64,000 bases of DNA from a virus, in the IMG/VR virus record IMGVR_UViG_3300024261_000007, positions 1 through 64,000 of that record, one strand, 5' to 3'. Below, piece by piece: positions 50,587-64,000 of this stretch (position 1 is its first letter; each line of letters begins with the position of its first letter). A program made the translations under genes and the position numbers. The notes under the pieces were generated by a model. That model saw only the letters and a program-made list of their open reading frames with translations, was not told the origin of the DNA and searched no databases.

Positions 50587-51420
50587 ATGTCAAAGCACAA
50601 CAAAAAGAGAAATATTGGAATTATATATGAACAAATAATTCAATTTGTGTGTAAGTCTTTGATGGAAAGCAACAATGAAATTGCTGAACAAGGTTTATCT
50701 ATTATAAAAGAGCATTTTAGCGAAGGAACACAGTTAAACAAAGAATATAAACTGTTCAAAGCACTTTCAGACACGAAAGGTGTTTCAGAACACTTGGCCA
50801 ATTCTATTATTTTTGAAGCAAAAAAAGCTTGTAATCACATGTTTAACAATGAAAAGCTTGAAAGAGAAAAAAGTTCTTTAATTAAAAAACTTAACTATAC
50901 TTTTGGCAAAGGCGTTATTTTTGAAGAAAGTGTTAAAAAATATACTGAATATGCAACAATTCAAACTTTGTTAAATGAATGGAGAAATCCTGAGACTGCT
51001 AGCTTTGATTTGACAACAAAATATGAAATTAAATTACACGAGAGTTTATCAAGTTCTCTGCAAGAAGAAAAAACAATTAATGACATTCCTCAAGTTGATT
51101 CAATAACTTATAAATTAATGAACGAAATATTTAGCAAAAAATATTCTTCTTTATTTAATGAAACACAAAATAAAATTCTTAAGCTTTATTCAACTGAAAG
51201 AAACGAAGAATTATTAGAAAGTTTTTCAAATTTAAAAATAAAAACTGGAATGCTTTTAGAAAATTATATTTTAAAGTGCGATAATAAAATATTAAAAGAT
51301 AAATATCAAAAAGTTCTTAACAATATTTCAAAACTTTCAGACGCTGATTTGTCAAAAGAAAATTTGCAAAAATATTTAACTTTATCAAAACTTGAAGAAG
51401 AATTATTAGGAGAAGAATAA
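50587..51420 (+). CDS. Unrecognised head-module protein between portal and protease, 277 aa
   Basis: The product is helical, rich in Lys, Glu, Leu and Ser, and starts NIGIIYEQIIQFVCKSLMES followed by a segment ending FSEGTQLNKEYKLFKAL. I have seen this kind of protein at the same place (portal, this, protease) in other T4-related aquatic phages, but without a function. T4 carries the small core proteins gp67 and gp68 here, so a prohead-core role is a reasonable inference. Two bases separate it from the portal gene, and its stop overlaps the protease ATG. Confidence 0.6.
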   Translation: MSKHNKKRNIGIIYEQIIQFVCKSLMESNNEIAEQGLSIIKEHFSEGTQLNKEYKLFKALSDTKGVSEHLANSIIFEAKKACNHMFNNEKLEREKSSLIKKLNYTFGKGVIFEESVKKYTEYATIQTLLNEWRNPETASFDLTTKYEIKLHESLSSSLQEEKTINDIPQVDSITYKLMNEIFSKKYSSLFNETQNKILKLYSTERNEELLESFSNLKIKTGMLLENYILKCDNKILKDKYQKVLNNISKLSDADLSKENLQKYLTLSKLEEELLGEE

Positions 51421-52022
51421 TGTTAGCTCCAAAACTTATAACTGAATGGTCTACTTTTGATTACGATGTAAATCTTATAAAAGAGCAAAAAGAAGCAGGA
51501 AAGCCTTTAATTATGAAAGGCATTTTACAAAAAGCTGAAACTTTAAATCAGAATGGTCGTGTTTATCCAAGATCTATTCTTGAAAGAGAGATTAGAAATT
51601 ACCAAAAGTTTATCAAAGAAAATAGAGCTTTAGGTGAGTTAGATCACCCAGACTCTTCTGTTGTTGAGCTTAAGAATGCATCTCATAATATCAAAGAAGC
51701 TTATATGGAAGGTAACGTTGTTTACGGCACTGTTGAGATTCTTAGCACACCGAGTGGTAAGATCTTGCAGTCTCTCGTGGAAAGTGGTGTTACTTTAGGT
51801 ATTTCATCACGTGGTGTAGGCAGTACAAGAACTGAAGGCAATATGCAAATTGTACAAGACGATTTTCAATTAATTTGCTGGGACTTTGTTAGTGAGCCTT
51901 CAACCCCTGGTGCATTTATGATGAAAGAAGGCAGAGAAGTTTCTCCTCAATTCATAAACGAAGTATTTAACAAAACAGATAGAATAGATAGAATTTTTAA
52001 TGATATATTGGAGTGGAAATAA
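51420..52022 (+). CDS. 21: Prohead maturation protease gp21
   Basis: The 200-aa product shows the T4 gp21/herpesvirus-assemblin-type serine protease pattern: NGRVYPRSIL (46-54), catalytic His76 in GELDHPDSS, and catalytic Ser129 or Ser130 in LGISSRGVG. T4 gp21 is 212 aa. It sits in the prohead core and, after assembly, cuts scaffold and capsid proteins after L-x-E or I-x-E. The gene overlaps its neighbours by one base on each side (TAATG), and GGAGAAG precedes the start. Confidence 0.9.
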   Translation: MLAPKLITEWSTFDYDVNLIKEQKEAGKPLIMKGILQKAETLNQNGRVYPRSILEREIRNYQKFIKENRALGELDHPDSSVVELKNASHNIKEAYMEGNVVYGTVEILSTPSGKILQSLVESGVTLGISSRGVGSTRTEGNMQIVQDDFQLICWDFVSEPSTPGAFMMKEGREVSPQFINEVFNKTDRIDRIFNDILEWK

Positions 52023-56227: not shown

Positions 56228-57919
56228 ATGGCAAATAATTTATATGAAGAGGCAATTAACGCTGCTGAGCAGTTAAAAGAAGCTGCTGAAAGTAAAGTTA
56301 AGCAACACTTAATTGAAGCGATGTCGCCTCAAATTAAGCAATTGGTGGAAAAAAGTTTATTAGGTGAAGAGGTAGATGAACTTTCTGTCGTACCTGTAAA
56401 CTCAGGGGAAGAGCCAGAAGACGACGACAAACCAGAAGATGGCAACGACAAACCAGAAGATGGCAAAGACGCTGATGAAAAAGAAGTACTTTCAGATTCA
56501 GAAAATCAAGAAGAATATGGAATGTATGAAGATGAGGATGCTGACTTTTTCTTTGCAGGTAAAAATGAGCAAGTTGAAATTTCAGAAGAATCAGCAAAAA
56601 TATTAAAAAGTATGTTAAGTCATAAAGCTAAAAAGGATGCAACTGCTGAAAGATTAAAAGAGATAAAGTCTGCAATAATATCTTTAAAGCGATCAATTAT
56701 TTTAGCAGAGAGTAGTAATAAAACACAAAAGCATCGTTCTAAATTTGTCTTGGCGTACAAAAATATATTGCGTGAACTAAAAAATATTAAAGAGAGTAAT
56801 ATAATTAAATCAGATAAAACGTTATTAAAAGAATATTTAAGAATATCTAAGGAGATAAATAGCATGTCAACAAGACGCAGATCAAGAAGAAATTATTTAA
56901 ATGAAAGCCTCGACGAACTGCTCGAGATGAATATCTTTGAAGAAGACGAAGACGAAGCTAGCGACGAAGTAGAAGCGGACGCAGAAGTAGAAGCGGATGC
57001 AGAAACTGAAGAAGAAGCTGGTGAAGTTACGGCTGGCATGCTAAAACAAGCTTCTGAAATGTCTTTAGGCGATTTAGTTTCAAAAGCTTTAGATCCCGAA
57101 GGTTCTGATATGCCTTCTGATGATTTTGATCTTGATCTTGGGGATGAAGAATCTGACGAAGAATCTGACGAAGAATCTGAAGAAGAATCTGACGAGAGCA
57201 ATGAGGGTTATCATAGAGAAATCGACGAGATGGATCACAAAGAAATCGACGAGATCGATGAAGGTCCAGATAGTTCTACGAACGAGACTCGTTACGCTAA
57301 GGGAGATCTTTTCTTGGAGATCGACGAAAATATGCTTAAAAATGAAATTACTAAAATGAGAAAACTTCGCGAAGGCGAAGCAACTGAAATGTCATCACAC
57401 TTTGGCGGTGGTGATTTAGATAAAGAAATGTTTGTTGATGTTGACGAAGGCGATCTTAATGTACATTCAGGCAATCTTGGCCGTGAGGATGTACCTATGC
57501 CTAAAGTTGAAGCAGCTCTACGTAAAACAATGCGTAAGAATCGCATGTTAGAGGGCAAGGTACAAGAATATCAGGATGCGGTTCGAGGAATGAAGACGCA
57601 ATTAACAGAGATGAACCTCTTTAACGCTAAGCTTCTCTATGCAAATAAACTTATGCAAAACAGAGGGCTTTCACTTAAACAACAACGCCATATTGTTGAG
57701 TCATTAGACGAAGCTTCTACTATGAACGAGGCAAAACTCTTATTTGAGAGCCTCTCGAAGTCTTTGATGAAACCTGCTCCAAAGGGAAGAAAACTTTCAG
57801 AAGGTGCAAACAGAAGAACTCTTGCTTCGGCATCACGTTCTACAAGAAGCGCGCAAGCTCCTCTTAATGAATCTGTTGCATTGGACCGTTGGGCAACTCT
57901 TGCAGGAATCAAAAAGTAA
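56228..57919 (+). CDS. 22: Prohead scaffold core protein (gp22-like)
   Basis: Position directly before the capsid gene, very acidic composition and coiled-coil tendency mark this 563-aa protein as the prohead core scaffold. The N-terminus (KQHLIEAMSPQIKQLVEKSL then LGEE) is the conserved start of gp22-like proteins in T4-related aquatic phages, and the C-terminus RWATLAGIKK is also typical. T4 gp22 is only 269 aa; the extra length here is three acidic repeat tracts (DKPEDGN, EVEADA and DEES types) and the helical region around residues 130-235. In T4, gp22 is degraded to peptides by gp21; L-x-E sites such as HLIE-A, KLSE-G and PLNE-S are present. Confidence 0.8.
   Translation: MANNLYEEAINAAEQLKEAAESKVKQHLIEAMSPQIKQLVEKSLLGEEVDELSVVPVNSGEEPEDDDKPEDGNDKPEDGKDADEKEVLSDSENQEEYGMYEDEDADFFFAGKNEQVEISEESAKILKSMLSHKAKKDATAERLKEIKSAIISLKRSIILAESSNKTQKHRSKFVLAYKNILRELKNIKESNIIKSDKTLLKEYLRISKEINSMSTRRRSRRNYLNESLDELLEMNIFEEDEDEASDEVEADAEVEADAETEEEAGEVTAGMLKQASEMSLGDLVSKALDPEGSDMPSDDFDLDLGDEESDEESDEESEEESDESNEGYHREIDEMDHKEIDEIDEGPDSSTNETRYAKGDLFLEIDENMLKNEITKMRKLREGEATEMSSHFGGGDLDKEMFVDVDEGDLNVHSGNLGREDVPMPKVEAALRKTMRKNRMLEGKVQEYQDAVRGMKTQLTEMNLFNAKLLYANKLMQNRGLSLKQQRHIVESLDEASTMNEAKLLFESLSKSLMKPAPKGRKLSEGANRRTLASASRSTRSAQAPLNESVALDRWATLAGIKK
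56426..56467 (+). repeat. Two 21-bp units in the scaffold gene
   Basis: Two near-identical in-frame units encode DKPEDGN and DKPEDGK, differing at one base. They lie in the first acidic linker of the scaffold protein. Confidence 0.85.
56966..57001 (+). repeat. Two 18-bp units in the scaffold gene
   Basis: GAAGTAGAAGCGGACGCA and a copy with one change (GGAT) encode EVEADA twice. Part of the second acidic tract. Confidence 0.85.
57143..57190 (+). repeat. Four 12-bp units in the scaffold gene
   Basis: Four in-frame units of the type GACGAAGAATCT encode (D/E)EES repeats. The complementary strand is open as a Ser/Asp-rich frame, but that is a by-product of this repeat and is not a gene. Confidence 0.85.
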
Positions 57920-57965: not shown

Positions 57966-59942
57966 ATGAGTTTTACACTTAAAACATTAACAGAAGGTAT
58001 TAGAGACCGCCACGTGGGCCAGCAGAACGCTCGCCTCGTTGAGAAATGGTCTCGCACAGGTCTCCTAAGAGGCATGGAAGACACACATCGTGAAAATATG
58101 GCTACTCTTCTTGAGAACCAGGCTGCTCAAGTTCTTCGCGAGAGCAACACAATGGGTGGCGATCAAGTTGGTGGTTTCACTAACATTGCATTCCCAATCG
58201 TTCGCCGCGTATTCGGTGGTTTGGTAGCAAACGAGCTTGTTTCGATTCAACCAATGAGTCTTCCAAGTGGTCTTCTATTCTACCTCGATTATACATATGG
58301 TAATGATGTAGGTGGTTATGGCAAGGGTCAAAGCATCTACGGACAACCAAGCGGCAAGGACATCCAAGCCGGTGCACTTGCAACTGGTGGTCAATACGAC
58401 CTTGCTGGCGCAGGCTTCTCACGTCGTCATGTTAGAGGAACTGAGACAACCGTCGCTCAAAAAGGTCCAGCAGCCGGCGTCGCCGCGAAAGGCGATATAG
58501 GAGCAAATGAGCTATTTATACTTGACGCTGACCGAGGTGCGCCTAACACAGATGTAGCAGCCGCACTCTCTTCACTCGCTGTAATTAGAACTGACAAGCA
58601 ACAAGATCTTAAACTTATACAGTTTGATCCACAATTAATTGATCGCATCGATCAACTAGATGAACCATACGCATTTTTGTTAGTTCACCCTTCAAAATGT
58701 GACCTCGACGGCGCACAGACATTTGACAAGGGCATTGATGCCTCAATGATTAAAGACGTTGCCCTTGTTGCATCTGTTGGTAATGTAGTAGACATGGATG
58801 CAAAGAGTATTTTAAGAATGCCTGCTAAAGAAGTACAGTCAACAAGTCACGAATTTGGTAAAGTAACAAAGCCGGGTGCTGTATTTAATATTCGACGTTT
58901 AAACCAGCTAGGTTATTGGGACGGAACAGTGTTTACACCAAATAGTCTAGCAAGTCTATCTGATGATACTACACGTGTTTTAATGGTTGTAAGAAAAAAT
59001 ATAAAAACTACAAATCTAAATGCAAATCTGGACGACCTTGAACTCTCTTACGTAATGTCTTCATCACAGACAGTTGGCGCTGACAGTGGTGAGGTTGATT
59101 TCGATCCAGCATTCGAGAGTGGAATGCAAGAGCAAGGTGAAGCCATCAGTCCAACAATCCCAGAGATTGATATTAAGATCGAGTCAATTCCTGTGACTGC
59201 ACAGACACGTAAGTTACGTGCACGTTGGAGTCCTGAGTTGGCACAAGACCTTAACGCGTACCACTCAATGGACGCAGAGGTTGAGCTTACCCAGATTCTT
59301 TCAGAGCAAATTGCTCTTGAGATTGACCGTGAGATTCTTGGTGATCTTCTAAGTGGTGCACAAGGTGCAAACTTCTTTTGGAGTCGTTCACCTGGTAAAT
59401 TTGTTAACAAGCGTACTGGTTCTGCTGTTGAGCGTACAAGCACTCTACAACCTGGACCAGCATTTACTGGTACAGTTCGTGAGTGGTATGAGACTCTAAC
59501 TGAGACTGTTATTGACGTAGCAAATGAGATTCACCGTAAGACTCTACGTGGTTCTGCGAACTTCATCGTAGTTTCTCCTGACGTTGCAACTATTCTTGAA
59601 GCATCTGTACTTTACCGCCCAAGCTATAGCATTGACGGTGACGGACAAGTTGGTGCTCCATTCACAATGGGTGCAGAGAAGATTGGTTCACTAAGCAACC
59701 GTTTCACAGTTTACAAAGACCCATACTTCCCACGCAACAAGATTCTTGTTGGATATAAGGGTGGTTCTTACCTCGAGACTGGATTCGTTTACGCTCCATA
59801 TGTTCCATTGATCGTTACTCCTACTATCTTCCAGCCAGAGGATTTCACCCCGCGTAAGGGCGTTATGACTCGTTACGGTAAGAAGATGGTTCGCGCTGAC
59901 TTCTACGGTACAGTTACATGCCTCGACATGAACATTATCTAA
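57966..59942 (+). CDS. 23: Major capsid protein gp23
   Basis: The 658-aa product aligns by eye with T4 gp23 (521 aa): VRRVFGG, SIQPMSLPSG, then TAQTRKLRARWSPELAQDLNAYHSMDAE in outline, QIALEIDREIL, NFIVVSPDVATIL and TGFVYAPYVPL. It builds the HK97-fold head lattice. About 135 extra residues fall in the insertion domain, roughly residues 170-365. The prohead protease should cut after Glu59 (VLRE-SN), equivalent to Glu65 of T4. Codon use is unlike the rest of the window: many CGT, CGC and C-ending codons, as expected for the most abundant protein, except in the insertion where A/T-rich codons return. AAGGA lies 10 nt before the ATG. An intrinsic terminator follows. Confidence 0.93.
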   Translation: MSFTLKTLTEGIRDRHVGQQNARLVEKWSRTGLLRGMEDTHRENMATLLENQAAQVLRESNTMGGDQVGGFTNIAFPIVRRVFGGLVANELVSIQPMSLPSGLLFYLDYTYGNDVGGYGKGQSIYGQPSGKDIQAGALATGGQYDLAGAGFSRRHVRGTETTVAQKGPAAGVAAKGDIGANELFILDADRGAPNTDVAAALSSLAVIRTDKQQDLKLIQFDPQLIDRIDQLDEPYAFLLVHPSKCDLDGAQTFDKGIDASMIKDVALVASVGNVVDMDAKSILRMPAKEVQSTSHEFGKVTKPGAVFNIRRLNQLGYWDGTVFTPNSLASLSDDTTRVLMVVRKNIKTTNLNANLDDLELSYVMSSSQTVGADSGEVDFDPAFESGMQEQGEAISPTIPEIDIKIESIPVTAQTRKLRARWSPELAQDLNAYHSMDAEVELTQILSEQIALEIDREILGDLLSGAQGANFFWSRSPGKFVNKRTGSAVERTSTLQPGPAFTGTVREWYETLTETVIDVANEIHRKTLRGSANFIVVSPDVATILEASVLYRPSYSIDGDGQVGAPFTMGAEKIGSLSNRFTVYKDPYFPRNKILVGYKGGSYLETGFVYAPYVPLIVTPTIFQPEDFTPRKGVMTRYGKKMVRADFYGTVTCLDMNII

Positions 59943-59978
59943 GGTAAGTTCTAGTGGTTGACACCTTAGGGTGATAAG

Positions 59979-60003
59979 AAGCCAGCTTTTTGCTGGTTTT
60001 TTT
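59979..60003 (+). terminator. Intrinsic terminator after the capsid gene
   Basis: AAGCCAGC pairs with GCTGGTTT around a TTTTT loop (one G-T pair), followed by seven T residues at 59997-60003. It is a standard rho-independent terminator, 37 nt after the capsid stop. A smaller CACC-TTAG-GGTG hairpin precedes it (59962-59973). Confidence 0.85.
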
Positions 60004-60093: not shown

Positions 60094-63000
60094 TTAAGAT
60101 AACAGCATTTTGATGTATTGTCTAATAAGCGAGTCCATTTGTAACTCTGCTTCTTCTTCTGGCGTATTTGCTCTTAAGCTCGAAGCCTCTTCGGGAAAAG
60201 CCATGGCCATGTGCATTCCTGCATGCTTGCCCATTTTCTGGACCATTTCAAAAGCAATTTCTTTTGAATATCGAGTACCGAACATGCTTTTGTTTGTGTT
60301 GAATTTTCTATCTCTAAACAAATCTTTAAGAGTTTCTCTTACAATTGAAAGTTCTTTGCCGTATAAACTATCACTTCCATCTTCAGAAATACCGATAAAG
60401 TTTTTAAAGAATTTTTTAATCCCGGCAGCTGAATTATAGTTTTGTCCTGATGATAATGTAGCGATTTTTTGCATAACATCTTTAGGCAAAGCTTTATTGT
60501 TTTGAGTAAAGACATCAATTAAAATGTTTATAAACCGTGTATGCAATTCAGTCTTTCCGTAATGTCTTATGACATGATTTAAATGATTTCTTAAAGTATT
60601 TGTTACTTCTTCACTGCATATTATTTGCGTGTTAATTGTTTGAATTGCTGAAGTTGCTAAGCTTTCTTCGTAATTTGATGCGTAACCTGTGTTATCTTTA
60701 GAAAATAATTGTTTTACGAATTCACCAAAATAAGATTTTCTTTTTTCAATGGGTATGAAGTCTAAAAATGTTAGTATTAAAGGTACGACTTTTGCTTGAT
60801 TTTGGCTAATGTAAGAAATATTATTTTTATTGACGCTGTCAATAAAATTTGATGATTCTATGAATATTTTAGACTTATTTTGAATATTTTTTATTATGTT
60901 ATTAATTTGTTCGCCTCTCATAATACGCATGCTGATCTCGTAAAAAGATTCACCAATGACTTTAATCTTCAAAACATCATCTAATAATTTAAAAATCTCG
61001 TAAGTATATTTAAAATCAAAACCCTTTACAGTGTTATCTAAAATAGCTGTGTTGAAAAAATTTCTACATGCTTCTTGCTCTACCATCTCATTGTCATTGT
61101 CAAACATGTTTCCGACAAACTCTGAAATATTTTCTAGTGTCTTTGCGTTTAAGTCTGTAACATTTTTATTGTATACATTTAAGAATGTTATAAAGTTTCC
61201 AAAATAGTCTGCACCTTTAAAACCATCTTTGTATGTAGTCAAATCATTAAATATGCTAAATTGCTCTTGATCATATCGTATATTAAACGGGTTTCCTTCC
61301 ACTATATTGAAAGCAATTAGTTTATATAAAATATACGCGTCTCTATTTTTTAAATAGTCTTTTATTAGTCTGAACGTTTCATGTTCTGATAATATATTAT
61401 TTTTTATCTCTTGATAAGAACTTTTGTCAAGAGATAAAAATCTTCTTTCTTCGTCACTTTTGTCTAGGAATCTTTTTGGGAATCTTGCATCTTCAATTAT
61501 ATATCTTGTCGCAAGATTTAAATCGATGCGCTTTTTTATGTCTTCATTTGGATCTTTGCTTTCTTTTTGTAGTTGATTTATAAACAGATCTGAATATCTA
61601 AAAATTAGACAAGATATAAAAACTTCAGGTCTAAATGAATCTCTTGACAGACCTGAAGATAATCCTCCTGACACTTTGTTTATCGAATTTATACCAAATT
61701 CTGTAATATAAGATTTTATGCCTTGTGAATTCATTAACATATCGTATATTGCTATATTGTTTTTTGTAAGCCCTTCACTTTTGTTGTTAATATTGCAAGG
61801 ATTAACATATACTCTGTAATCATCGCTTTCTAGCGATAGCTTTATTATTCTTTTTAAGTTATTTGCGTTGTTTGTATTGCATGCAATTTCTAAGGCACTT
61901 TTAAACTCATCAAAGTTGAGTTGATAACGATAGTGTTTAAGAAAAGAATACGTCATTTTTTTTTGAATTTCTAAAAAAGCATTAAAATATCTTGGGTGAG
62001 ATCTTTGATTTAGTATTTTGTTTTTTAAATTATTATAAATTTCTTCTCTAGGATACATGCCCTGAGTACGGAAAAAGTCACCAAAATACAACGTCTCAGC
62101 ATCTAAATTATCAAATATATAATAAGCTACACTATCCACAATTACTTCAGCTGCATCTTCTTTAGAGAGCTGTGTCTCTGTGCACATTAACTCATATAAA
62201 CCCATAGTCTGTTCAACGCCTGAAAATGCGAGTGATTGTGAAAAACAATTTTTTAATTCGTTGACATCATTAAGTTTACTAAGTCCTATTACATTATCTT
62301 CAATCTCAGAAATGTTTGATTGTAAGTTAACTTGTTCTGGTAGCTTTGCAATTTCTGTTTTCATTTCATTTGTTATGTATTCATCCAGAAATTCGTCATC
62401 AACATGATTATTGTGAAAGTCACAAGTTTCTTCTACGTCAATAGTTCCGTCAAATCGAACTTTAAGACTAATTGCATAAGCATCTTCACCAAAGTCAGCT
62501 TTTTTTGAATGTGCAACTGCTACATACTGACTTGAATTATAGCTGCTCCAAGTTGATTCTCTTCTATATGTGCACCAAGTCGATTCGCTCGCTCCCAATA
62601 CACTTCCAAGCATATGCTTAAATGCTTTGTAGTTTGTTGGATAAACAATTAACATATTATCGTCTTCATACACTTTTAGCAATGATTCAGCTAACATTTT
62701 CTCAGAAACTACAGATGTCTTTTTATAACCTTTTGCAAATGCCATTCTTTTCATTATAATATTAAAGTCAAAGTTTCCCTTTTCGATCTCATCTTTTTCT
62801 TCTTTTCTTGCAATGTCATAATATACACGCATGTAAAGATCAGCAGCTTTAATACAAGTATCGATATCTACGTCAACAGACTTTTCAACATATTGTATTA
62901 TGCTGTCAAACATCAACAGAACCTTTTTAAATTCAATAAACTCCCCATCAGAATTTTTATGTTTTCTAAGTTGTCGAATTAAAATTTCTTCAGCTTCTTT

Positions 63001-63489
63001 GAGCTTCTTTTTATTTTCTTTTCCTTTAAGTTCTAATAGTTTTGTTACATATACTATTTTTATAATTTCTAAAGCAATGTTTTTCTCTTTTACAGAAGTT
63101 GCCTCGTAAAGTTCAAGTTGATATTCCTTTTCTTTTTCAGATAGTGTAATAGGCGTCAAGTCTTTTTCGTTTACTTTAATACCTTTGCTTTTTCTAATAT
63201 CAACACTTTTTTGTCTATCTTTTTCTTTTGACGCATACTCAGCTTTTAATTTATACAAAAACTCATTTTTTTGCATCGCTGTTAAATATTTTCTTTTTTT
63301 AAATAAATTGTCATCTATTTTGTCGAAAGCTTCTTCAACAGAGCTTATTGTAGGATCACCAATTAATTGAGGTTTTTCTTTGCAAAGCTTGATTAATTTT
63401 TCTAAAAAGTTTTTTGGAGTTAAAACAGCCATCTCGTTTAATAACATACTATTTTTATAGAAAATCTCTTTTAGCGAATATTTTTTCAT
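60094..63489 (-). CDS. 1131-aa WCT-motif protein, possible packaged internal head protein
   Basis: This is the only gene on the minus strand. Residues about 280-370 (LIVYPTNYKAFKHMLGSVLG, then STWCTYRRESTW with Trp305-Cys306-Thr307, then VRFDGTIDVEETCDFHNNHVD) resemble the core of a phage protein family with a conserved W-C-T motif that I know only as uncharacterised. The rest is helical and repeat-like, with no membrane segment. The N-terminus (MKKYSLKEIFYKNSMLLNE-M) resembles T4 capsid-targeting peptides and contains an L-N-E site at 17-19 for the prohead protease. I infer that it may be packed in the head and injected, as T4 Alt is. AAGG precedes the ATG, and TATAAATA lies 19 nt upstream. 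Enzymatic function is unknown. Confidence 0.7.
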   Translation of the reverse strand: MKKYSLKEIFYKNSMLLNEMAVLTPKNFLEKLIKLCKEKPQLIGDPTISSVEEAFDKIDDNLFKKRKYLTAMQKNEFLYKLKAEYASKEKDRQKSVDIRKSKGIKVNEKDLTPITLSEKEKEYQLELYEATSVKEKNIALEIIKIVYVTKLLELKGKENKKKLKEAEEILIRQLRKHKNSDGEFIEFKKVLLMFDSIIQYVEKSVDVDIDTCIKAADLYMRVYYDIARKEEKDEIEKGNFDFNIIMKRMAFAKGYKKTSVVSEKMLAESLLKVYEDDNMLIVYPTNYKAFKHMLGSVLGASESTWCTYRRESTWSSYNSSQYVAVAHSKKADFGEDAYAISLKVRFDGTIDVEETCDFHNNHVDDEFLDEYITNEMKTEIAKLPEQVNLQSNISEIEDNVIGLSKLNDVNELKNCFSQSLAFSGVEQTMGLYELMCTETQLSKEDAAEVIVDSVAYYIFDNLDAETLYFGDFFRTQGMYPREEIYNNLKNKILNQRSHPRYFNAFLEIQKKMTYSFLKHYRYQLNFDEFKSALEIACNTNNANNLKRIIKLSLESDDYRVYVNPCNINNKSEGLTKNNIAIYDMLMNSQGIKSYITEFGINSINKVSGGLSSGLSRDSFRPEVFISCLIFRYSDLFINQLQKESKDPNEDIKKRIDLNLATRYIIEDARFPKRFLDKSDEERRFLSLDKSSYQEIKNNILSEHETFRLIKDYLKNRDAYILYKLIAFNIVEGNPFNIRYDQEQFSIFNDLTTYKDGFKGADYFGNFITFLNVYNKNVTDLNAKTLENISEFVGNMFDNDNEMVEQEACRNFFNTAILDNTVKGFDFKYTYEIFKLLDDVLKIKVIGESFYEISMRIMRGEQINNIIKNIQNKSKIFIESSNFIDSVNKNNISYISQNQAKVVPLILTFLDFIPIEKRKSYFGEFVKQLFSKDNTGYASNYEESLATSAIQTINTQIICSEEVTNTLRNHLNHVIRHYGKTELHTRFINILIDVFTQNNKALPKDVMQKIATLSSGQNYNSAAGIKKFFKNFIGISEDGSDSLYGKELSIVRETLKDLFRDRKFNTNKSMFGTRYSKEIAFEMVQKMGKHAGMHMAMAFPEEASSLRANTPEEEAELQMDSLIRQYIKMLLS

Positions 63490-63507: not shown

Positions 63508-63515
63508 TATTTATA
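63508..63515 (-). promoter_or_regulatory. TATAAATA late promoter for the minus-strand gene
   Basis: On the minus strand the exact late-promoter octamer TATAAATA ends 19 bases before the ATG at 63489, leaving room for a short leader with the AAGG ribosome-binding site. This is the best-placed late promoter of the window. It indicates late expression of the 1131-aa protein, at the same time as the head proteins. Confidence 0.65.
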
Positions 63516-63536: not shown

Positions 63537-63562
63537 AAAACCCGCTTCGTGCTGGTTTTTTT
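63537..63562 (+). terminator. Intrinsic terminator on the + strand, upstream of the 103-aa gene
   Basis: AACCCGC and GCTGGTT pair with one mismatch around TTCGT and are followed by seven T residues. It points along the + strand although the gene to its left runs on the minus strand, so it has no obvious + strand gene to terminate. Nineteen bases (TGCTGGTTTTTTTGTATTT, 63550-63568) are identical to the capsid-gene terminator at 59991-60009. Confidence 0.65.
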
Positions 63563-63619: not shown

Positions 63620-63931
63620 ATGAAAAGATCAAATACAAGTAAATTATTAAACGAATGGAAAAGCTTTTTAAATGAAGAATATTATGTTGATGATCCAAAT
63701 GCAGGTCTTGTCGACTCAGATAGCTCAGCAGCTGACAAAAATGAATTAATAAATATTATTAGGCAAGATATTTTACAAGATTTAAATGTTGATATGGAAG
63801 AATTTCTTGATGAAGTATTTAATATTCTTAGCGAAGAACAGTTACAAATGATTTATAACAAGTACTTGCCTGATGGACCTCAGCAGAGTGATGACAGGGC
63901 ATTAGAAAACGATCCTGATATGAGTACTTAA
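63620..63931 (+). CDS. Small acidic protein with capsid-targeting-like N-terminus, 103 aa
   Basis: The N-terminus MKRSNTSKLLNEWKSFLNE is basic and amphipathic, with L-N-E sites at residues 10-12 and 17-19, then the chain turns acidic (YYVDDPNAGLVDSDSS) and helical (IIRQDILQDLNVDMEEFLDEVF). This arrangement fits the T4 internal head proteins, in which a short N-terminal targeting peptide is removed by gp21. An AAAAAGGA site lies 12 nt before the ATG. I do not recognise the mature part. Confidence 0.6.
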   Translation: MKRSNTSKLLNEWKSFLNEEYYVDDPNAGLVDSDSSAADKNELINIIRQDILQDLNVDMEEFLDEVFNILSEEQLQMIYNKYLPDGPQQSDDRALENDPDMST

Positions 63932-63934
63932 TTT

Positions 63935-64000
63935 ATGAAATATCCAAAGTTTTATGAAAATAGTAAATTGCCAGTAATATTAAGCAAGTTTGCGCCTATT
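63935..64000 (+). CDS. Start of a conserved phage gene, cut by the window edge
   Basis: Twenty-two codons are visible, starting MKYPKFYENSKLPVILSKFA and continuing to the edge. This opening (YPKFYEN, PVILSKFAPI) is familiar to me from a small unnamed phage protein family. It starts three bases after the stop of the 103-aa gene, so the two are probably co-transcribed. Nothing can be said about the rest. Confidence 0.55.
   Translation, partial: MKYPKFYENSKLPVILSKFAPI

Follow-up and report, generated by a model that had tools for sequence, protein, structure and literature searches.

The internal head proteins of phage T4 are injected into the host, where some block host restriction, and none of the internal cargo proteins described for T4 is known to reach 1100 aa. 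These proteins carry capsid-targeting sequences of 10–19 residues that are removed by gp21, and the mature parts that follow differ widely from one another (PMC9026906, PMC3012670). For phiKZ and SPN3US, propeptides are cut C-terminal to glutamate by the prohead protease and the proteins are ejected with the DNA (PMC5694885). Here we describe a 1131-aa protein encoded next to the capsid gene of a virus from IMG/VR, for which we favor, at a probability of roughly 45%, the reading that it is expressed late and carried as cargo in the head of a Far-T4 phage.

The window, i.e., the 64,000-nt stretch of DNA that was analysed, comprises bases 1–64000 of a virus record that is 133,024 bases long. By profile matches, this virus has T4-like genes for capsid, portal, terminase and protease. 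Because capsid protein comparison identified Flavobacterium phage immuto and Rhodothermus phage RM378 as the nearest cultured relatives, this marine relative of T4 can be placed in or near the group named “Far-T4” (PMC4360716). The 1131-aa gene (60094–63489, minus strand) has an ATG start, a TAA stop and an upstream AAGG as its ribosome-binding site, and its product has a predicted mass of 131.7 kDa and a pI of 6.15. It had been described as the only minus-strand gene in the window, which is correct; the genome has further minus-strand genes just outside it, at 65077–68100 and 128782–131218 of the record. Protein and profile scans of IMG/VR recovered close relatives in three metagenomic phages only, all in the same slot: L011 (72% identity over the full length, in the same genomic place), L083 (80% over the N-terminal 188 aa) and L012 (54% over the C-terminal 97 aa). 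Differences between the window gene and its L011 relative at codon positions 1, 2 and 3 numbered 227, 139 and 355, and since substitutions track codon structure in this way, the open reading frame beside the capsid gene is, as had been proposed, a real gene, and one under purifying selection.

Neither sequence nor two-row profile searches with the 1131-aa protein produced a usable hit in Pfam, PHROGs, NCBIfam, PADLOC or PDB; PHROGs yielded nothing at E ≤ 1 with the whole protein and a best value of 0.096 with the WCT domain described below, and the PADLOC anti-phage-defence families yielded zero matches. Searching 50,697 phage records by tblastn with the whole protein and the domain returned no real match (two matches at E = 1, both inside napA genes, were discarded), and a scan of bacterial and archaeal genomes found no relative. 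The original prediction of an uncharacterised class is borne out by the lack of a named-family match across these libraries, and assignment to an undescribed protein family is supported.

The W-C-T segment, originally placed at residues 280–370, is present, with WCT itself at residues 305–307. It lies within a domain spanning residues 262–387 (62329–62706, minus strand), which is predicted at low confidence to be arranged as beta-beta-alpha-WCT-beta-beta-beta-alpha; the rest of the protein is predicted, also by a low-confidence model, to be helical. AlphaFold2 pLDDT was 45 for the whole protein and 36 for the WCT domain, a failure due to only three or four relatives being alignable. At these values fold comparison against solved structures is uninformative, and the Foldseek searches that compared the domain with PDB and the whole-protein model with BFVD were treated as such. 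The fold search suggested earlier, run with the model of residues 262–387, thus gave viral leads but no usable PDB comparison. Its four best viral hits were phage proteins without characterisation, of which a single phage supplied three (Myoviridae sp. ctWb16 A0A8S5T1F0, A0A8S5T0B4 and A0A8S5T035, plus A0A6J5LH30), with probabilities of 0.89–0.98, 17–21% identity, E of 0.006–0.02 and a TM-score of about 0.35 from a model of pLDDT 36; we regard their resemblance to the WCT domain as a lead.

A profile of the WCT domain, run against 71 related or large phage records, gave one plausible match, the 781-aa hypothetical protein RM378p036 (NP_835623.1) of Rhodothermus phage RM378, encoded beside the portal gene gp20. 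The alignment covers the domain only, at about 25% identity (E = 0.004 per genome, pairwise E = 0.04; shuffle test 20/500 and 2/500), the order of parts resembles that of the 1131-aa protein, T-V-C-I and a following W-x-x-Y fall at aligned positions, and an I-N-E is found at residues 15–17. Because E = 0.004 applies to one genome and 71 records were searched, RM378p036 is a tentative distant relative. The profile search proposed for the WCT family therefore produced this one tentative kinship but no match in the libraries. Two further matches to the domain profile were rejected on inspection, one in a glycosyltransferase-like ORF (L089) and one lacking the motif (L202), as was a weak match of RM378p036 to MT835475. 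The phiKZ genome contained nothing that matched the profile, and a three-row version found nothing new in 45 records. Together, RM378p036 and the viral Foldseek hits suggest that phages encode a broader WCT family that is as yet undescribed. Residues C306, C356, H327 and H362 are conserved in L011, and of these only C306 and H327 align in RM378p036; that the domain is catalytic is doubtful. A search for an ADP-ribosyltransferase domain gave no Pfam, NCBIfam or PDB sequence match at E up to 1–10; as the fold is not predictable, a highly diverged version of this domain may still be present.

The 1131-aa gene follows that of the major capsid protein, a gp23 homologue by sequence matches (57966–59942, plus strand), which in turn follows a gene for an acidic protein (56228–57919, plus strand) with homologues in the same place in relatives and a putative scaffold role. 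Two near-identical terminator hairpins enclose it in the window, one after the capsid gene (59976–60002, plus strand) and one, with a single stem mismatch, on the far side of the minus-strand gene (63540–63562, plus strand). The divergent neighbour beyond (63620–63931, plus strand) encodes a 103-aa protein with the N-terminal tag MKRSNTSKLLNEWKSFLNE, in which L-N-E occupies residues 17–19, exactly as in the 1131-aa protein. What lies behind the capsid gene varies among relatives: in L007 the slot is empty and the capsid gene adjoins the homologue of the 103-aa gene; in L003, L004, L010, L020 and L026 an endonuclease-like gene comes next (NUMOD3 in L003); the L003 slot also holds the gene for a lipoprotein-like protein of 988 aa that contains ten CxxCH haem sites; and in RM378 the capsid gene is followed by minus-strand genes, including an HNH endonuclease. 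These varying contents mark the position as a cargo slot. The L003 protein (L003:4276–7242, plus strand) is a multihaem cytochrome (Cytochrom_c3_2, 2.6e-12; MtrC/MtrF-like domain, 3.4e-7), an odd phage cargo to find behind a capsid gene.

A variable slot of this kind, with near-identical terminators on both sides and an occupant whose presence is rare and patchy, would suit a mobile accessory gene (a moron or toxin-like gene) serving its own or the host's ends, and the twin terminators are a possible trace of insertion by duplication. Yet neither L011 nor L083 showed the second terminator copy, the protein matches no known domain or defence family, and its promoter is of the phage late type; we consider a mobile accessory gene quite improbable.

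Two other features of the capsid region were observed. At 63935–64834 of the record, between capsid and tail genes, a small conserved 122-aa gene is followed by one for a glyoxalase-fold protein (PF00903, 1.4e-12), and both are kept in relatives. The capsid protein of the window has 658 aa against 536 aa in immuto, and alignments with the closest homologues in phages cover only about 57–73% of its length; the extra length and partial alignment suggest that it carries an inserted domain.

A T4-late-type promoter element, TATAAATA (63508–63515, minus strand), which is the core of T4 late promoters, begins at 63515 upstream of the 1131-aa gene. The claim that the gene has its own such element holds, and the element is conserved, but 18 nt rather than 19 separate its last base from the ATG. 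It recurs 18 nt upstream of the L011 relative and just upstream of the L083 relative. Genome-wide enrichment was rejected (29 occurrences vs. 25.6 expected), the element being enriched only by position upstream of genes: the 70-nt upstream windows of genes in the 12 closest loci contain 15 copies, where about two would be expected, and the genes it precedes include those for TerL, scaffold, MCP and the 1131-aa protein. Late co-expression with the head genes is therefore likely, and the late-gene reading of the original prediction, strengthened by a promoter element common to terminase, scaffold and capsid genes and kept among relatives, is very probably right.

The same late promoter, together with the position beside the capsid gene, a mostly helical predicted structure and the fact that RM378p036 adjoins a portal gene, could also be expected of a protein that forms part of the prohead structure or core, such as a minor scaffold or inner-head protein on which head assembly or size depends, as opposed to an injected effector. 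This is unlikely, given that the gene is absent from nearly all relatives with 58–71% identical capsid proteins and that the L007 slot is empty, which argues that the 1131-aa protein is not essential for such heads.

As cargo cut during head maturation, the protein would need a protease and a site. The window encodes a prohead protease of the Peptidase_S77/gp21 type (51420–52022, plus strand; Pfam 3.9e-28, phrog_207 3.1e-51), whose own N-terminus includes LITE-9. The capsid precursor contains a conserved Q-x-L-[RK]-E, immediately followed by a variable linker and then the shell domain, and its propeptide ends L-[RK]-E in every relative inspected (LRE in the window), which by analogy is the expected cutting site of a gp21-type protease. 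The N-terminus of the 1131-aa protein reads MKKYSLKEIFYKNSMLLNE followed by MA and is net basic. Residues 1–19 (63433–63489, minus strand), ending L-N-E, form a candidate capsid-targeting propeptide; L-N-E at residues 17–19 is identical in the window protein and in both relatives covering the N-terminus. The basic helix ending L-N-E that had been noticed at this end was confirmed, the helix being predicted at residues 6–20 by a low-confidence model. We reject the notion that L-N-E by itself proves a propeptide, as [LI]xE occurs in 26% of internal 24-residue windows and the stricter [LIVM][LIM]xE in 8%. The protein contains 18 [LI]xE tripeptides, so it would have to be shielded by its fold to survive in the prohead. 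At the opposite end lies a conserved C-terminal helix, DSLIRQYIKMLLS (60097–60135, minus strand), resembling LLKEYIxxLL peptides at the N-termini of other proteins of these phages; motifs of this type stood at a protein terminus in 10 of 13 matches, three of these coming from the family of the 1131-aa protein. Cleavage at both ends is known for T4 Alt (PMC9026906), but no [LI]xE site was found near the C-terminus of the 1131-aa protein.

N-terminal peptides of this kind recur on proteins with unrelated bodies. Examples from this virus are LLNEWKSFLNE (63620), LLNEWHQNFLNE (128782) and LLTEWKQNFVNE (129758); in relatives, LLKEWRSYINE occurs, ILKEWRKF precedes an exonuclease-like domain and MLEWRQYVFE an HD domain. 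The pattern LLxEWxxFLxE is found in three other proteins of the virus, of which the 1131-aa protein has only the L-L-N-E end; it resembles the tags in its basic start, predicted helix and L-L-N-E end, and lacks the tryptophan (LLxEW) and LRxxIR cores of the clearest ones. A regular expression for the LLxEW-type core gave 6–7 N-terminal and 0 internal matches in 1150 genes; it was set from the members in this virus, so only its matches in other genomes are independent.

The general motif [LIVM][LIM]xE, sought in residues 7–30, was N-terminal in 38 of 200 families at first count (12.7 expected), in 43 of 220 when families were clustered without their first 30 residues (13.4 expected), and, with the same clustering, in 42 of 234 when applied unchanged to parts of three held-out genomes (13.8 expected). 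This first tag type is therefore about three times commoner at N-termini than in internal windows, and the excess repeated on held-out genomes; in the controls the counts were 12 vs. 9.0 expected for T4, 15 vs. 13.3 for phiKZ and 4 vs. 1.1, a small excess, for lambda. In T4 so simple a motif picks up gp21, gp22 and gp24, as identified by position, among other proteins. The held-out set also yielded 16 cases, against 0.2 expected, of a second kind of tag, L[RK]x[LIVMYF][IV][RK]; T4, phiKZ and lambda had none. In the related genome G010 this second type was in excess (7 vs. 0.0), without enrichment of the first (8 vs. 6.2). An uninterrupted run of eight minus-strand genes in G002 (L100:7121–13467, about 146–152.5 kb in G002) combines related N-termini, which begin MRITExxLRxxIRxxIxE or variants of it, with eight unrelated bodies.

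Further N-termini were noted on the minus strand of the record, outside the window. The stretch at 128782–131218 encodes two proteins starting MSKLNRKEFKELLNEWHQNFLNE and MSKMNRKEFNELLTEWKQNFVNE, the latter with relatives in L004, L007, L013 and L083, several of which have N-terminal tags of their own. A 369-aa protein with a DNA polymerase beta thumb domain (65077–66186; PF14791, 3.6e-12) starts MVNNYQKKILIEG, and the product of the next gene (66203) starts MKISINNLRKIIRETIEE.

Whether the 1131-aa protein enters the head at all must be weighed against a late cytoplasmic role in host modulation, superinfection exclusion or chaperoning of assembly, with a coincidental L-N-E. An LLNE-type match arises by chance in 8% of windows and is the sole tag feature of the protein, the first tag type shows no excess in G010, the gene forms its own minus-strand transcription unit between terminators, and relatives fill the same slot with endonucleases, for which packaging is not required. 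Set against an unpackaged protein are the conserved N-terminus, the lineage-wide tag excess and the location of the tentative homologue RM378p036 beside the RM378 portal gene, and we judge this alternative a serious one but on the unlikely side. Packaging is supported indirectly by the protease gene, the L-[RK]-E capsid site and the tag excess. We found no virion proteomics for any close relative, and a length above that of the known T4 cargo proteins also weighs against packaging.

If the 1131-aa protein is head cargo, residues 1–19 would serve for capsid targeting by binding to the scaffold core, and the gp21-type protease would cut after L-N-E19 during head maturation. The remaining 1112 aa would be retained in the head and delivered into the host together with the DNA, in the manner of T4 Alt and the IP proteins. 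Activity or binding would then most likely reside in the conserved, cysteine-containing WCT domain, and the helical C-terminal part of roughly 730 residues would provide an interaction scaffold, with host takeover or counter-defence as candidate targets. The steps differ in credibility: we give even odds to presence in the phage head, slightly less than even to a cut after E19, and somewhat lower odds again to injection into the host.

The lineage-wide set of N-terminal tags is a more interesting result than the 1131-aa protein itself. We tentatively propose that in Far-T4 phages short tags (LLxEWxxFLxE, MRITxxxLRxxIRxxIxE and LLKEYIxxLLxE) may load dozens of unrelated proteins, enzymes included, into heads, and that the 1131-aa WCT protein, with a tag-like helix at both ends, may be among the largest of these cargoes. 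If this is true, head-loading tags would be a modular delivery system far richer than the few known CTS proteins of T4. With the tags as packaging signals, the injected proteome of an abundant environmental phage group could be read from sequence, and the 1131-aa protein would be a large effector that belongs to an unnamed family and is concrete enough to test; if they are not packaging signals, the excess of near-identical N-terminal peptides on unrelated proteins still needs an explanation.

Compared with known systems, the inner-head ejection proteins of phiKZ and SPN3US are likewise cargo with propeptides cut C-terminal to glutamate by a prohead protease, the cut in the 1131-aa protein being a candidate; they differ in a diverged protease, an S/A-x-E motif and mostly longer propeptides. 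RM378p036 offers a similar layout of a helical-looking N-terminus, a T-[WV]-C-[TI]...W-x-x-Y domain and a long further part. Relative to T4 Alt and IPI–IPIII, the protein stands apart in its 1131 aa and in its lack of sequence similarity to any named family and of an ADP-ribosyltransferase match. It resembles them in having a short basic N-terminal peptide (10–19 residues) that ends in a gp21-type site, in being the product of a late gene in a phage with a gp21-type protease, and in belonging to a set of divergent bodies behind a tag; as head cargo, it would constitute a new family among T4-type internal head proteins.
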